DNA from: Chloroflexota bacterium
GTDB taxonomy: Bacteria > Chloroflexota > UBA6077 > FW602-bin22 > CADDYW01
Direction of reading: 5' to 3'
DNA: 64,000 bases
Assembly: GCA_902810745.1 (NCBI GenBank)
Contig: CADDYW010000001.1
Location: forward strand, 62,001-126,000
Position 1 is the stretch's first letter. Each line of letters opens with the position of its first letter. The notes under the pieces are model-generated. The model worked only from the letters and a program-made list of their open reading frames with translations, searched no databases and was not told the origin of the DNA. This document shows positions 8,538 to 15,230 of the stretch, piece after piece. Both the position numbers and the translations under genes were made by a program.

Positions 8538-9260
8538 GTGCGCGGTGCCATCACGGTCTGTCGCGTCGCCTGCATTCCGGTGGAGATTCAGGTCTCCTGG
8601 CCACCGGTCTTCCTCTTCGTGAGCTGGGCACTCGCGGTTCGCTTCTTTCCTCGGCTCTATCCGGAGTGGTCCACGTCCAGCCACTGGATGGCCGGCGTCC
8701 TCTGCAGCGTCTTGCTGTTCGGGTCACTCCTCGCTCATGAGCTAGGCCACGCGCTCGTGGCACGCTGGCGAGGTCTTTCTGTCTTTCGGATCAGCCTGTT
8801 CTTTCTCGGCGGCATCGCGGAGATTGGCGTCGATGATGGGACGCCGGGCGACGAATTCTGGATGACACTGGCCGGACCAGCCACCAGCGTACTTCTCGCG
8901 GTCAGCTTCGTCGGGGTTGGACTGGCGATAGCCGCGACGGATCAACGTCTCGGTGCCGTTGCGCTGTACCTGGGGATCAGCAATGCGCTGCTGGCTGCCT
9001 TCAACCTGCTCCCGGGGTACCCACTGGATGGTGGTCGGCTGTTTCGCGCGGTCCTCTGGCAGATTTTTGGCGATCGGACGCGCGCGACTCGCTGGGCGAG
9101 CTGTCTGGGCCTGGGAATCGGCGTCGTGGGCATCGTCTCCGGCCTGGTCGACGTGATATCTGGCGACGCGCTCGTCGGGATCTGGCTGGCTGCCGTCGGA
9201 GCGTTCCTGATCTTGGCCGTGCGCGGCCGAATTTCCACGATCCTCACCTCTCCCTCTTGA
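8538..9260 (+). CDS. M50-family (site-2-protease type) membrane metalloprotease
   Basis: Predicted intramembrane zinc protease of the SpoIVFB/S2P-like group, with 240 residues and about five to six transmembrane segments. Zinc ligands are H67 and H71 of HELGH, with D164 of LPGYPLDGG as third ligand. It has neither the PDZ domain of RseP nor the C-terminal CBS pair common in this subgroup, so it is a minimal catalytic core. Its substrate cannot be told from sequence. The TGA stop overlaps the -35 hexamer of the imuA promoter, so the next operon is transcriptionally separate. A second M50 gene, rseP, lies at the right end of the window. Confidence 0.85.
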   Translation: MRGAITVCRVACIPVEIQVSWPPVFLFVSWALAVRFFPRLYPEWSTSSHWMAGVLCSVLLFGSLLAHELGHALVARWRGLSVFRISLFFLGGIAEIGVDDGTPGDEFWMTLAGPATSVLLAVSFVGVGLAIAATDQRLGAVALYLGISNALLAAFNLLPGYPLDGGRLFRAVLWQIFGDRTRATRWASCLGLGIGVVGIVSGLVDVISGDALVGIWLAAVGAFLILAVRGRISTILTSPS

Positions 9261-9285
9261 CACTAGAATATTTGTTCTATATGAT
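9257..9285 (+). promoter_or_regulatory. Consensus-like promoter of the imuA-imuB-dnaE2 operon
   Basis: A perfect -35 TTGACA (9257-9262) and a -10 TATGAT (9280-9285) are separated by exactly 17 nt. The spacer is almost completely filled by a palindrome resembling a LexA site. A bound repressor would block polymerase directly. The start would fall near 9292, with the imuA ATG at 9354. Confidence 0.8.
9264..9279. promoter_or_regulatory. Putative LexA/SOS operator
   Basis: The 16-bp sequence TAGAATATTTGTTCTA has 5-nt palindromic arms (TAGAA/TTCTA). It matches the Gram-positive/actinobacterial SOS core GAAC-N4-GTTC at seven of eight positions (GAAT-ATTT-GTTC). It sits between the -35 and -10 of an error-prone polymerase operon, the operon type controlled by LexA in other bacteria. 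The LexA specificity of this organism is not known from the window. Confidence 0.6.
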
Positions 9286-9353
9286 GGGAAGCAGGCAGCC
9301 TCACCCTCGATTCCTCTTCGAAAAAAGCTTCGATAAGTGGGAGAGTGCCATCG

Positions 9354-10460
9354 ATGAGCGACCAGACCTGTACTACAGGCCAGCCCACCACTCCACCCCT
9401 CGACCGGGAAGAACGCCTGCAGATCGTCCTCCGCGAACTCGAGCGCCGTTTCGGGCCATGGATCGTCTATCGGCTGAAAGATGCTCGGCCAGCGCTCGGC
9501 AATCTCGCCATCTCGACCGGCTCTCTATCGCTCGACCTCGCCACCGGTATCGGCGGTTTCCCGCGTGGTCGTATCACCGAGCTGATTGGCCCGACTAGCT
9601 CGGGCAAGAGCACTTTAGCCTTCCACCTCCTGGCGAACGCGCAGCGCCAACGGGGCTTTGTCACGCTTATCGACTCTACTCACCAGGTTAGCTTCGATCA
9701 GATGAAGCACTGTGGCGTCGACCTCGCAGATCTCTTTCTCGTCGTACCAGAGAGCGCTCGGGAAGCACTGGAGGTCGCGGCGCTACTGGTCGAGAGTAAA
9801 GGGTTGGATGCCCTGGTCATCGGCCCACTATCCGATCTGATTGGGAGATCAGCGCGAGTGGGCCAGAGCGCGGCAAGAAAGCTGGGACGCCTGAATGCGA
9901 TCATGCACGCCGCGCCGACCGCGGTCGTTTTCCTGTCCGACGACAGAATTCGGCCCCCCATGATCCCGGTCAGCCGAGCCCTTCGCCACTTTTCCTCTCT
10001 TCGAATCCAGATAACACCGCTGCGGCCTCTCCTCCATCCCTCTGGCGACGTCTTTGGGCTGCGCATCCGGGCCGAGACGGTTAAGAACAAGCTGGCGCCG
10101 GCGCATCGCCAGGCTGACTTCGACGTACGTCGCGAGCGAGGAGTTCATCGGGAAGCTGAGCTGATTGATCTCGGCCTCGCCAGATCGATTCTCGAAGAAC
10201 GATCACTCGGTATCTGCTTTGAGCGTCACTTCCTTGGGCGTGGGAGGACCCGGGCAATCGCCACGCTGGAGTGCGATCCAGCCCTGGCGCAGGACCTCGA
10301 AAATCGGATCACCGCGGGCTCTCCCTCTCTTCCCTCCTTCGATGCCCAGACCGAGCACTGTGCTGGCGCAGTACAGCCTTCCTCCGCGCCGCCAGAGCCC
10401 CACGTCTCCTTATCCTCCGACACGCGATTTCTGCCATCTCATCTCTGTACCCGGGAGTGA
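9354..10460 (+). CDS. imuA: ImuA-like degenerate RecA paralogue
   Basis: RecA-fold accessory protein of the translesion mutasome, 368 residues. It aligns with RecA through DREERLQIVLRELERRFG, STGSLSLDLATGIGGFPRGRI and the Walker A loop GPTSSGKST (residues 79-87). The usual catalytic Glu of RecA's GPESSGKT is Thr81. The Walker B Asp is Gly157 (LVIGP), and the NQLR region is not conserved. Nucleotide binding may persist, but canonical recombinase activity looks unlikely. The family link comes from synteny with imuB and dnaE2. ATG 9354 is preferred (GGGAG about 10 nt upstream) over GTG 9345. The C-terminal 80 residues are low complexity. The stop is 4 nt before imuB. Confidence 0.8.
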   Translation: MSDQTCTTGQPTTPPLDREERLQIVLRELERRFGPWIVYRLKDARPALGNLAISTGSLSLDLATGIGGFPRGRITELIGPTSSGKSTLAFHLLANAQRQRGFVTLIDSTHQVSFDQMKHCGVDLADLFLVVPESAREALEVAALLVESKGLDALVIGPLSDLIGRSARVGQSAARKLGRLNAIMHAAPTAVVFLSDDRIRPPMIPVSRALRHFSSLRIQITPLRPLLHPSGDVFGLRIRAETVKNKLAPAHRQADFDVRRERGVHREAELIDLGLARSILEERSLGICFERHFLGRGRTRAIATLECDPALAQDLENRITAGSPSLPSFDAQTEHCAGAVQPSSAPPEPHVSLSSDTRFLPSHLCTRE

Positions 10461-10464
10461 GGCC

Positions 10465-12000
10465 ATGCGTATCGGCTACGTCTGGTTTCCACATCTGTCG
10501 GTTCAGGTGGCCACGCTCCGCGATCCAGCGTTGCGTGGCCGGCCGCTCGTTATCGGCGGTGATCAGACCGGGCGAGGGCGGGTTGTCGACGCGAGCGACG
10601 ATTGCCTGGCAGCTGGCGTCACGAGCGGCATGGCCCTGCGCGAAGCAATCGAGCTGGTTCCAGCGGCGACGTTCCTGCCGGTTGATCCCAACGGCGACGC
10701 TGATATGTTCGCTCGAGCCCTCGATCTGCTTGACCGATTTGCCGAGGCAATCGAGGAGAATGGACGCCAGGGCGCATGGTTTGTTCCCGCTGGCCTCCCC
10801 TCGCACCCCCCGGCGCCGTGTGTCTCCGAAGCGCGGCGACTGGGTGCCACAATCGTCGATAGCATCGCGGCCGCGCTCGGTCTGAGCAGCCGGGTCGGGA
10901 TCGGGGCAGGGAAGTTCATCGCCCGCGTGGCCGCCGAGCGTGCTCCGGTAGGAGGCGTTGAAGTCGTTGCGACGGAATATTCAGCCGCGTATCTCGCGCC
11001 GCTGCCGGTCACGCTTCTGCCGCTCTCTCCCCGATCGATCGAACGGCTGAAGCTCCTCGGCGTTTCTACTATTGGAGACTTCGCTCACCTCCCCTCGGAT
11101 GCTCTACCGCGTCGTTTCGGTCCTGAAGCGGGCCTTGCCTGGCGTATCGCCCACGGTGATGACGATGCACTACTGATCCCGCGCCGCCGACCGGAAACGT
11201 GGTCGGCGCGGCAAACCTTCGAGCCACCAATCGAAGATCGTACGCTGATCCTCACCGCCTCTCGGGCGTTGCTGGACCGTCTCTGTCGGCCACTCCAGGA
11301 TCGAGGACGTGCGTTTCGGACGCTCTGGATCACGATCGGCCTGGAAGATGGACGGGTTCTCGATCAGCACGCCGACCTGCGCACACCGACGAGCGACCCT
11401 CGCCGATGCCTGCCAGTCCTCCAGAGTATGGTCGAGGCATTGACACTCGAACGGTCGGCAGCCTACGTGGCCGTGCGAATCGAGGCGATCAGGCACGAGC
11501 CAGCGAACCAAGGTGAGCTATTCGACCGCACAAGAGCCGAGCGCCGCGAGCGAATCGCCCAGACCCTCTCCGAGATCGCCCGACGCTATCGCGGGCGACT
11601 CCGCCGTGTCGTTCCGGGCGATAATCCGTCGAGCCTCTTCGTCGATCGCCGTCTCCTGCTCCTCCCATACGAGCCTGACGTGGGCCGTGGCTCGGTCAGC
11701 CATCACCTGGCCGAGCCGGCCACGCGCATCCGACCGATCCGGCTGATCGTACGTGACGGGCGAATCTACCTGGCAGGGCCGAGTGCAAGATCGGAGACGC
11801 GACCTGTCTCCTGGCAGGCTACTGGCGCATGGGAGAACGATGAGATCGTGGCGCTCCACGCTCGCTGGGAAGCTGACGACTGGTGGCCCGATACGACGCG
11901 GTGGACGTATTACCGAGTACGCACACGCCGTGGCCTGATCGCCACCCTGGCACGCGATCACGACCAACAGCGCTGGTTCTTGATCGAAAACTTCGATTGA
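10465..12000 (+). CDS. imuB: ImuB, inactive Y-family DNA polymerase homologue
   Basis: Adaptor of the ImuA-ImuB-DnaE2 mutasome, 511 residues. In Y-family polymerases the first motif is HVDMDCF; here the equivalent is YVWFPHL (residues 5-11). The SLDEAYLD region is QGAWFVPAG (102-110). All three catalytic acidic residues are therefore missing, as described for ImuB proteins. A sliding-clamp binding motif QGELF is visible at residues 349-353, consistent with recruitment by the beta clamp. The ATG 10465 lies just after the imuA stop with GGGAGTGAGG upstream; a longer in-frame opening into imuA is rejected. dnaE2 follows after 14 nt. Confidence 0.9.
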   Translation: MRIGYVWFPHLSVQVATLRDPALRGRPLVIGGDQTGRGRVVDASDDCLAAGVTSGMALREAIELVPAATFLPVDPNGDADMFARALDLLDRFAEAIEENGRQGAWFVPAGLPSHPPAPCVSEARRLGATIVDSIAAALGLSSRVGIGAGKFIARVAAERAPVGGVEVVATEYSAAYLAPLPVTLLPLSPRSIERLKLLGVSTIGDFAHLPSDALPRRFGPEAGLAWRIAHGDDDALLIPRRRPETWSARQTFEPPIEDRTLILTASRALLDRLCRPLQDRGRAFRTLWITIGLEDGRVLDQHADLRTPTSDPRRCLPVLQSMVEALTLERSAAYVAVRIEAIRHEPANQGELFDRTRAERRERIAQTLSEIARRYRGRLRRVVPGDNPSSLFVDRRLLLLPYEPDVGRGSVSHHLAEPATRIRPIRLIVRDGRIYLAGPSARSETRPVSWQATGAWENDEIVALHARWEADDWWPDTTRWTYYRVRTRRGLIATLARDHDQQRWFLIENFD

Positions 12001-12014
12001 TCGCGTGAATCGAT

Positions 12015-15000
12015 ATGACTACCAGGTACTCGCCCTTGCACGTTCACAGCAACTTCTCGCTGCTGCGTGGCGCATCCTCGGTCGAGGATCTGGTCGGGCG
12101 CGCGGCTAAGCTTGGCTACCGTTCGCTCGCGCTGACCGATCGTGATGCGCTCTACGGCACGGTCCGCTTCACCAAAGCGTGCGTGAACGCGGGGCTGCGA
12201 CCGATCCTTGGCAGCGAAGTAACACTCGAGGGGGGCTACCACCTTATTCTTCTGGCCGAGAACCAGGATGGCTACGCGAATCTCTGTCGACTGATCTCCC
12301 GAGCCCACGAGAACCAGCCCAAGGGCGAAGCCGTGCTCCCCTTCGACGCGCTTGCCGAGCGAGCGGGTGGGCTAATCGCGCTCTCTGGACCGCGCACGGG
12401 CGAGATCCCTCGGCTGCTCCTCGCCGGACGGCGTGCCGAGGCAGTCCGCGCCGCCAACCGCTACCGCGACGTCTTTGGCGATCGTTTCTACCTGGAGATC
12501 CAGAATCATTGCCTCCCCGACGATGGCTGGCTCATGGCCGAGCTCGCTGCCCTCGGGAAAGCCTGCCAGATCGATCTTGTCGCGACAACCGACGTTCACT
12601 ATGCCGAACCGGCGCGGCGAATGCTGCAGGATGTGCTCACCTGCATTCGAACCAAGACGACGATGGCCGCTCCGTCGCCCGAGCGTCTTCCCAACGGACA
12701 CTTCGGGTTGAAATCACCTGAAGAGCTACAGCACCTCTTCAAACAATTCCCAGAGGCCCTGGATCGAACCGCGATCATCGCCGAGCGCTGCGCCGTTTCG
12801 CTCGACTTCCACGGCGCGCGCTTTCCCCCGCTGAACCTGCCCGAGGGAGAGACCCCCGATACGTACCTCCGTCGGCTGTGTCTGGAGGGCGCGCGCAAGC
12901 GGTATCGTCCGCTATCCGAGAACGTTCTACGCCAGCTGGATCACGAGCTTTCCATCGTCGCTCAGGCTGGCCTGGCTCCTTTCTTCCTCATCGCTGCCGA
13001 CGTGGCCCGTCGATTTCACGGCCGCTGTCGGGGCTCGGCCGCGGGATCGCTGATCGTCTACTGCCTGGGAGTCAGCGCGGTCGACCCGCTTCGCTACGGA
13101 ATGCTCTTCGAGCGGTTCATCAATCCAGAGCGCCCAACTCTACCCGATATCGATATCGACTTCTCCGAGTGGCACCGCGAAGCCGCGATCGCCTACGTCT
13201 ACCAGACGTACGGAACCGAGCGCGCGGCGATGGTCTGCAACTACGTGCGCTATCGGGAACGGCTGGCAGTGCGCGATGTCGGGCGCGCGCTGGGCCTTCC
13301 CGCCGACCTGATCGATCGCCTGGCAAAATCGTTGGATCGTGGCTGGGGTCTACACGCCGGGGATCGGGGGTTGGCGGGAGAGAATCGGGCCGACGTCCAG
13401 GGTCAAGCAGCCGATCCCCACTCCCCGATTGCTACCTTGATGCGGCTCTGCCGGGAGATCGATGACTTCCCGCGCCATCTCAGTATTCACGTGGGAGGCA
13501 TGCTCGTGACCGGTCGTCCGCTGGTCGAGCTTTTCGGGCTGGAACCAGCCCGCAAGGAGGGAATCATCGTCGTCGGGGCCGACAAGGAAGACGTGGAGGA
13601 CGTCGGGCTGGGAAAGCTCGATCTACTCTGTCTGCGTGCGCTCTCAGTCGTCCAGGAGGCCGAGGCGCTAGAGCGTCGGCGTGGCGTACCACTCGATCTG
13701 CGACGGATCAATCTCGAAGACCCGGAGATCTACCGCATGCTCCGCCACGCTGACACAATTGGCGCATCACAGGTCGAGAGTCGCGCCCAGATGCAGAGCG
13801 TGGTCCGAACTCAGCCTCGCTGCTTTCGTGACTTGATCAATCAGTGCGCAATCATTCGCCCGGGCCCTATCGTCGCGGGCATGGTTCACCCTTACAACCG
13901 CCGCCGCCTGGGCCTGGAGAAGGTCGTCTACCTGCATCCTCTCCTCGAGCCGATCACCCGCGACACCCTGGGCATCTTCCTCTTTCAAGAGCAGGTGATC
14001 CTTGGAGTGATGGCCCTCACGGGCTGCACGGCCGGCGAAGCCGACGTCTTCCGACGGGCGATGGGATCGCATCGCTCCCGCGAAGCGATGCATCGGCTCG
14101 AGCCCTGGTTCCTCGAGCACGCACAAGCGAATGGAATCGATCACTCCATCGCCGCCGAGGCCTTTCGCCAGATCAGTGGCTTCGCCGATTTCGGGTTTTG
14201 TCGGTCTCACAGCGCAGCTCTCGCCCGGACTGCCTACGAAGGACTCTTTCTCAAGCGGTACCACCCTGCCGCGTTTTATGCTGCGCTCCTCAGCAACCAG
14301 CCGATGGGCTTCTACCCGGTCGAGGTGCTGGTCTGGGACGGCCGACGCCACGGTATTCGGTTCTTGCCAGCGGATATTAATCGAAGTGCTGCGCGCTGTA
14401 CGCTGGAGGATACCGTCTGCTGGATGGCGGGCGATGAAGGACAGGAAAGCACGAGAAATCACTCGCGGGCACCTCGCCTCCAGGGACCGACGCCGAGCGT
14501 GCGGCTCGGACTCGAGCAGGTTCGATGGGTCGGGCGAGAGATCGCAGCCAGGATCGTTGCCGAGCGAGAAGCAGGTGGCCCTTATCATTCGCTTCACGAC
14601 TTCTGTCAGCGTACTGGCATCACCGGCAAAGCGGCCGAGGGCCTCATCCTGGCCGGCGCCTTCGACTTCGAGGGACGCTCGCGGCAAGATCAGCTCTGGG
14701 AGCTGTATGGAAGGATCGGCGATTCGACCAGACGATCGCTGAGGCTCGCTGAAGAAAGCGCGACACTCCCCGAGCGCCCCGAGCACGAGCAGATCTTGCT
14801 CGATCATCTTGTCCTGGGCTTCAGCCTGGAGCATCACCTCGTCGAAGGCTACCGGCGCCGGCTGGACGCGCTCGGAGTCATCCGAAGCGACAAGCTCGAG
14901 CACCAGCCGGCTGGCCGCGAGGTGCGCGTGGGAGGTCTGGTCGTCTGCCGCCAGCACCCGATGACCGCGAAGGGGTACGTCTTTCTGACGCTCGAGGACG

Positions 15001-15230
15001 AGAAAGGACTGATCAACGTCATCGTACGTCCGGAGATCTATCGCCAGTATCGTGATGCCCTTCGGAATAGCTGCCTGGTCGCGGTCGCTGGAACGCTGCA
15101 GCGGGCTTTCGGTACGGTCAATGTCGTCGCTCAGCGAGCGATTGCGCTCGACCCGCGGGTTCCCAGCGCCCCGGTCGTGCGTACCGGCGAGCTCATCGAC
15201 GCGGGCGTGCGCTCGCACGATTTTCACTGA
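12015..15230 (+). CDS. dnaE2: Error-prone DNA polymerase DnaE2
   Basis: C-family replicative-type polymerase used for mutagenic translesion synthesis. The 1071-residue protein starts with a PHP domain (PLHVHSNFSLLRG near residues 7-19). The polymerase core has PDIDIDF (377-383, catalytic D378 and D380) and KLDLLCL (third Asp at 536). A helix-hairpin-helix region and a C-terminal OB fold follow. Length and the QVESRAQM motif fit DnaE2 rather than replicative DnaE1. It is last in the putative SOS-controlled operon, 14 nt after imuB. Confidence 0.94.
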   Translation: MTTRYSPLHVHSNFSLLRGASSVEDLVGRAAKLGYRSLALTDRDALYGTVRFTKACVNAGLRPILGSEVTLEGGYHLILLAENQDGYANLCRLISRAHENQPKGEAVLPFDALAERAGGLIALSGPRTGEIPRLLLAGRRAEAVRAANRYRDVFGDRFYLEIQNHCLPDDGWLMAELAALGKACQIDLVATTDVHYAEPARRMLQDVLTCIRTKTTMAAPSPERLPNGHFGLKSPEELQHLFKQFPEALDRTAIIAERCAVSLDFHGARFPPLNLPEGETPDTYLRRLCLEGARKRYRPLSENVLRQLDHELSIVAQAGLAPFFLIAADVARRFHGRCRGSAAGSLIVYCLGVSAVDPLRYGMLFERFINPERPTLPDIDIDFSEWHREAAIAYVYQTYGTERAAMVCNYVRYRERLAVRDVGRALGLPADLIDRLAKSLDRGWGLHAGDRGLAGENRADVQGQAADPHSPIATLMRLCREIDDFPRHLSIHVGGMLVTGRPLVELFGLEPARKEGIIVVGADKEDVEDVGLGKLDLLCLRALSVVQEAEALERRRGVPLDLRRINLEDPEIYRMLRHADTIGASQVESRAQMQSVVRTQPRCFRDLINQCAIIRPGPIVAGMVHPYNRRRLGLEKVVYLHPLLEPITRDTLGIFLFQEQVILGVMALTGCTAGEADVFRRAMGSHRSREAMHRLEPWFLEHAQANGIDHSIAAEAFRQISGFADFGFCRSHSAALARTAYEGLFLKRYHPAAFYAALLSNQPMGFYPVEVLVWDGRRHGIRFLPADINRSAARCTLEDTVCWMAGDEGQESTRNHSRAPRLQGPTPSVRLGLEQVRWVGREIAARIVAEREAGGPYHSLHDFCQRTGITGKAAEGLILAGAFDFEGRSRQDQLWELYGRIGDSTRRSLRLAEESATLPERPEHEQILLDHLVLGFSLEHHLVEGYRRRLDALGVIRSDKLEHQPAGREVRVGGLVVCRQHPMTAKGYVFLTLEDEKGLINVIVRPEIYRQYRDALRNSCLVAVAGTLQRAFGTVNVVAQRAIALDPRVPSAPVVRTGELIDAGVRSHDFH

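Follow-up and report, generated by a model that had tools for sequence, protein, structure and literature searches.

A candidate LexA operator within the promoter of an imuA-imuB-dnaE2 operon in a Chloroflexota bacterium

The imuA-imuB-dnaE2 mutagenesis cassette, its control by LexA (PMC3323433, PMC6511836, PMC10421592), and the GAAC-N4-GTTC motif, which is the Gram-positive-type LexA operator of Bacillus subtilis and Mycobacterium (PMC3323433), are already well known in other bacteria. A LexA motif for Chloroflexota was not found in the open-access literature that we searched; RegPrecise, in which LexA is one of the widespread regulators and the Chloroflexi have a collection of their own, may hold one. 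A 64-kb stretch of DNA from a Chloroflexota bacterium (the window) contains genes of this type behind a promoter that encloses a palindrome. Is this palindrome a LexA operator, and if so, for which LexA protein? The genome from which the window comes, G000, is a 5.59-Mb assembly of 293 contigs, which we examined by pattern searches and in chosen stretches.

A palindrome between the promoter hexamers

The original prediction placed TTGACA and TATGAT 17 nt apart, with a palindrome filling the spacer, and this arrangement is exact at 9257-9285 (Table 1). The palindrome takes up 16 of the 17 bases of the spacer (CTAGAATATTTGTTCTA, 9263-9279) and abuts the -10 hexamer, an overlap with the promoter that is a mark of Gram-positive-type LexA operators. 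Six of the eight pairs in the 16-mer are self-complementary, and the predicted 7/8 match to GAAC-N4-GTTC was confirmed (GAAT-ATTT-GTTC). About 70 bases downstream begins a recA-like imuA, followed by imuB and dnaE2.

Table 1. Positions of the promoter elements, the imu genes, and lexA2
Feature	Position	Strand	Description
-35 hexamer TTGACA	9257-9262	+	Overlaps the TGA stop (9258-9260) of an upstream M50 peptidase-like ORF
Candidate LexA operator (SOS box) TAGAATATTTGTTCTA	9264-9279	none	11/12 match to TAGAAC-N4-GTTCTA
-10 hexamer TATGAT	9280-9285	+	
imuA-position gene	9345-10460	+	RecA-length RecA paralogue
imuB	10465-12000	+	Y-family polymerase-like; IMS and IMS_C domains
dnaE2	12015-15230	+	Error-prone DNA polymerase III alpha; one of two DnaE proteins encoded in G000
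lexA2	L002:1495-2109 (G000:C52)		The next gene (L002:2111-2782) encodes a sigma-70 region 4

The promoter hexamers scored 11/12 in a scan of 8 kb. At a looser threshold, the scanner found one promoter-like site in 8 kb, which is the chance number (1.2 +/- 1.0). Because hexamer-level matches equal the chance number, the promoter carries no significance by itself, whereas the palindrome exceeds chance. A matrix built from the lexA boxes of 22 other genomes ranked 9264-9279 first in the 64 kb, and 16 of 17 million simulated positions scored as high. With an enlarged matrix that adds 14 recA boxes, none of 17 million did. The lexA matrix gave the window site a score of 17.8, compared to 20.3 for the lexA box and 11.4 for the recA box of G000; the corresponding scores with the enlarged matrix were 19.8, 17.8, and 17.1. 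Since the window site scores near the lexA and recA boxes of its genome, a common repressor for the imu, lexA, and recA sites is plausible. The matrix boxes were picked by their GAAC-N4-GTTC core, so the matrix favors such sites, and 1 of the 14 recA boxes comes from G000 itself; for these reasons, orthologous promoters are the stronger evidence.

No perfect GAACN4GTTC lies within the 64-kb window (0.7 expected). Across the 5.59-Mb genome, a search for TAGAACN4GTTCTA that allowed one mismatch returned 2 sites, versus 12 for a reversed-pattern control. CGAACN4GTTCG occurs at 7 sites genome-wide versus 5 in the control, near chance apart from the site at lexA.

The genes of the imu operon

The three genes are separated by small gaps. 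Translation of imuA probably starts at ATG 9354, with GTG 9345 also possible, and GGGAG at 9339-9343 was read as its ribosome site. A separate recA and a separate dnaE are found elsewhere in G000. The dnaE2 product scored 971.5 bits against the "error-prone DNA polymerase" model (cutoff, 939). Inspection by eye of the N-terminal sequence of the imuB product did not reveal the acidic residues that active Y-family enzymes usually have, which would be consistent with an inactive protein of the ImuB type.

The imuA-position protein scored below the cutoffs of both the curated ImuA model NF033429 (39.7 bits; cutoff, 150) and the curated RecA model (184.1; cutoff, 325.3), and the gene owes the name imuA solely to its position and its homology to RecA. 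The protein keeps Walker A (GPTSSGKST). Elements whose roles in RecA are established have been altered: the catalytic Glu position (IDAEH to IDSTH) and the Walker B Asp position (AVDS to VIGP) are changed, and part of the region that RecA uses as loop L1 has been lost. The proteins in the same position in G004 and L090 resemble it, and the same features are seen at L041 and at L090:1946-2902. Whereas ImuA has been described as lacking Walker A and B and the C-terminal subdomain (PMC6511836), the protein in the window is of RecA length and retains Walker A. It may represent a stage between RecA and the shorter ImuA described elsewhere. In its gene order, its Y-family ImuB-type protein, its error-prone DnaE2, and the putative LexA box before its first gene, the locus is like the known cassette.

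Boxes at imuA, lexA, recA, and Y-family genes

The closest imuA relatives outside G000 are found in G004 (L091) and in the genome of L090. A scan of the contigs in the named collection yielded two imuA loci only, one of which is that of G004; both are labeled Chloroflexi bacteria. As the original prediction had proposed to check, the motif is also present at other imuA loci, where it is perfect. L090 has a 12/12 TAGAAC-N4-GTTCTA upstream of imuA (TAGAACTTTAGTTCTA), and G004 has a 12/12 copy in the same spacer position as in the window (TTGCAC-GATAGAACATTTGTTC-TATAAT). In G010, a recA-like gene beside a dnaE fragment is preceded by the perfect box TTGACATTAGAACAAGCGTTCTATTACAC. In these three relatives, the perfect sequence stands upstream of the recA-like imuA paralogue, with the core matched at 8/8 positions at the orthologous imuA sites versus 7/8 in the window.

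Both lexA and recA are encoded in G000, and their upstream regions, which the original prediction had singled out, contain a perfect CGAAC-N4-GTTCG box at lexA (CGAACTGCTGTTCG) and a 7/8 match to the core at recA (GCGAACGTTTGTGCTA). The core is complete (8/8) upstream of lexA in nearly all of the genomes of the order and class that we examined, and the lexA box is a perfect 12/12 TAGAACN4GTTCTA in G004, G006, G019, G025, and G026. In the window's own family, the lexA boxes have CG flanks (CGAACTGCTGTTCG) and not TA, which counts against the operator reading, although G003, of that family, has TA flanks on a perfect box at an imuB-like gene (see below). At recA, TAGAAC-N4-GTGCTA or close variants occur in many genomes of the order and class (e.g., L006, L049, and L065), one half-site repeatedly being GTGC instead of GTTC.

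The presence of the same motif at lexA, at recA, and at the imuA loci of relatives supports the proposed reading as a Gram-positive-type SOS box. In common with that operator, the predicted boxes have a GAAC-N4-GTTC core at the promoters of lexA, recA-type, and imu genes. They differ from it in the TA flanks (TAGAAC-N4-GTTCTA) found in much of this class, in the GTGCTA in one half of the recA copies, and in the GAAT in one half of the window copy. The suggestion that the lineage may have shifted its consensus to tolerate GAAT/ATTC is not supported: GAAT is a change of one base in one copy, and GAAC is kept in the imuA boxes of the relatives, in nearly all imuB-type boxes, and in nearly all lexA boxes.

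Nine imuB-type genes that align from residue 1 lie outside imuA operons (L075 and L101 being counted once). Eight of these have a full GAACN4GTTC upstream, and the ninth has a 7/8 match. No box was found upstream of seven Y-family genes that align only from residues 15 to 27 (DinB/UmuC type) or upstream of four that align from residues 2 to 7; the genes that lack the box provide an internal control for its presence at imuB-type genes. In G003, a member of the same family, a lone imuB-like Y-family gene (L101:615-1826, on G003:C206) has the perfect TA-flanked box TAGAACTTATGTTCTA at 1874-1889, and a protein search of that genome did not find imuA.

Two further sites were observed in G000. At L005:1500-1515 (G000:C63:16634-16649), CAGAACATGGGTTCTG lies approximately 85 to 100 bases before a gene and is a candidate SOS target; the opening sequence of this gene resembles that of a ribonucleotide reductase. 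At L116:1501-1516 (G000:C160), TCGAACGTACGTTCTA precedes an XRE-like regulator ORF by approximately 130 bases and may be a LexA site or a chance occurrence.

Two LexA proteins and the proposed control

G000 encodes two LexA proteins that are 45% identical. LexA1, a protein of 212 amino acids encoded by lexA on contig C44, scored 200 bits against TIGR00498 (cutoff, 111), and LexA2 also scored above the cutoff of this curated LexA model. Both have DNA-binding and S24 domains, the Ala-Gly cleavage pair, and the Ser/Lys pair, and in LexA1 these residues fall in invariant alignment columns. The recognition helix of LexA1 (STSVVDYNL) is kept or nearly so in the aligned LexA1-type proteins; that of LexA2 (TAALAH-V) is altered and one residue shorter. 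Pseudomonas putida, with LexA1 and LexA2, is an example of a genome with two LexA repressors. G000 is like such genomes in having two complete LexA proteins and, in one of them, a changed recognition helix, and unlike them in that lexA2 neither adjoins imuA nor has an imu-type box.

The palindrome is very probably a LexA docking site, judging from the conserved boxes, and we put at roughly 0.88 the probability that it is the operator of the canonical LexA1 at the imuA-imuB-dnaE2 promoter. LexA1 is the better candidate for the imu site because lexA1 has a perfect core box, lexA2 has none, and the genome of L090, with its perfect imu box, has a single LexA-domain match, which is of the LexA1 type. 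The deviating GAAT half-site and the existence of a second LexA count against this assignment.

The most serious alternative is that the site is the operator of LexA2 (C52). This paralogue would then recognize a sequence of its own and would provide a separate damage switch for the mutagenesis operon, an arrangement described for the lexA2-imuA-imuB-dnaE2 cassettes of some pseudomonads. LexA2 is a real, order-wide paralogue, with proteins 83, 81, 72, and 57% identical in G003, G001, G004, and G009, respectively, each of which has a second LexA. LexA2 was first suggested as the leading regulator by AATATTTGTT, which is common to the AT-rich lexA2 promoter of G000 and the imu box, and GAACAAATT half-sites are found upstream of lexA2 in G003 and G001. 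However, the LexA matrix gives these half-sites negative scores, and no sequence that matches GAACN4GTTC at 7 or more of its 8 positions lies in any of the lexA2 upstream regions examined. A search of these regions for a LexA2 motif returned only promoter-like -10 similarity. The same TAGAACN4GTTCTA is also used by single-LexA genomes, and we consider control by LexA2 unlikely; LexA2 may nevertheless bind the site in addition to LexA1.

Two other explanations are much less probable still. That the palindrome arose by chance in an AT-rich promoter and plays no part in regulation would agree with the chance number of hexamer-level matches and with a core match of 7/8 rather than 8/8, but it is very hard to reconcile with the matrix test and with the perfect boxes conserved in the corresponding position in imu-bearing relatives. 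The assignment to LexA rests on sequence, and another regulator with palindromic operators, such as a phage-type repressor, could be imagined, but the same motif stands before lexA itself and, as a variant, before recA in many genomes, which makes such a regulator highly improbable.

Under the LexA1 reading, LexA1 dimers would occupy the spacer between the two hexamers and block RNA polymerase at the imuA-imuB-dnaE2 promoter. DNA damage would activate RecA, LexA would cleave itself, and the promoter would open, giving rise to an ImuA-like/ImuB/DnaE2 polymerase set that may act as a mutasome in mutagenic lesion bypass. The strong expression and tight repression originally predicted from the architecture of the promoter are a weaker part of this reading.

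A broader scenario is that, in this order, the damage response was divided between the two copies of LexA after its duplication, with the AT-rich, GAAT-containing imu operator adapted to LexA2 (or read by both proteins) and the RecA-length ImuA standing between RecA and the short ImuA. We regard this scenario as unlikely; if true, mutagenesis would be switched independently of DNA repair. For a little-studied Chloroflexota lineage and its class, the results provide a sequence-supported SOS box (TAGAAC-N4-GTTCTA) tied to a putatively inducible mutagenesis operon. The genomes that combine a pair of LexA proteins with an ImuA of RecA length also offer a setting in which to test how targets change after LexA duplication and how ImuA originated from RecA.
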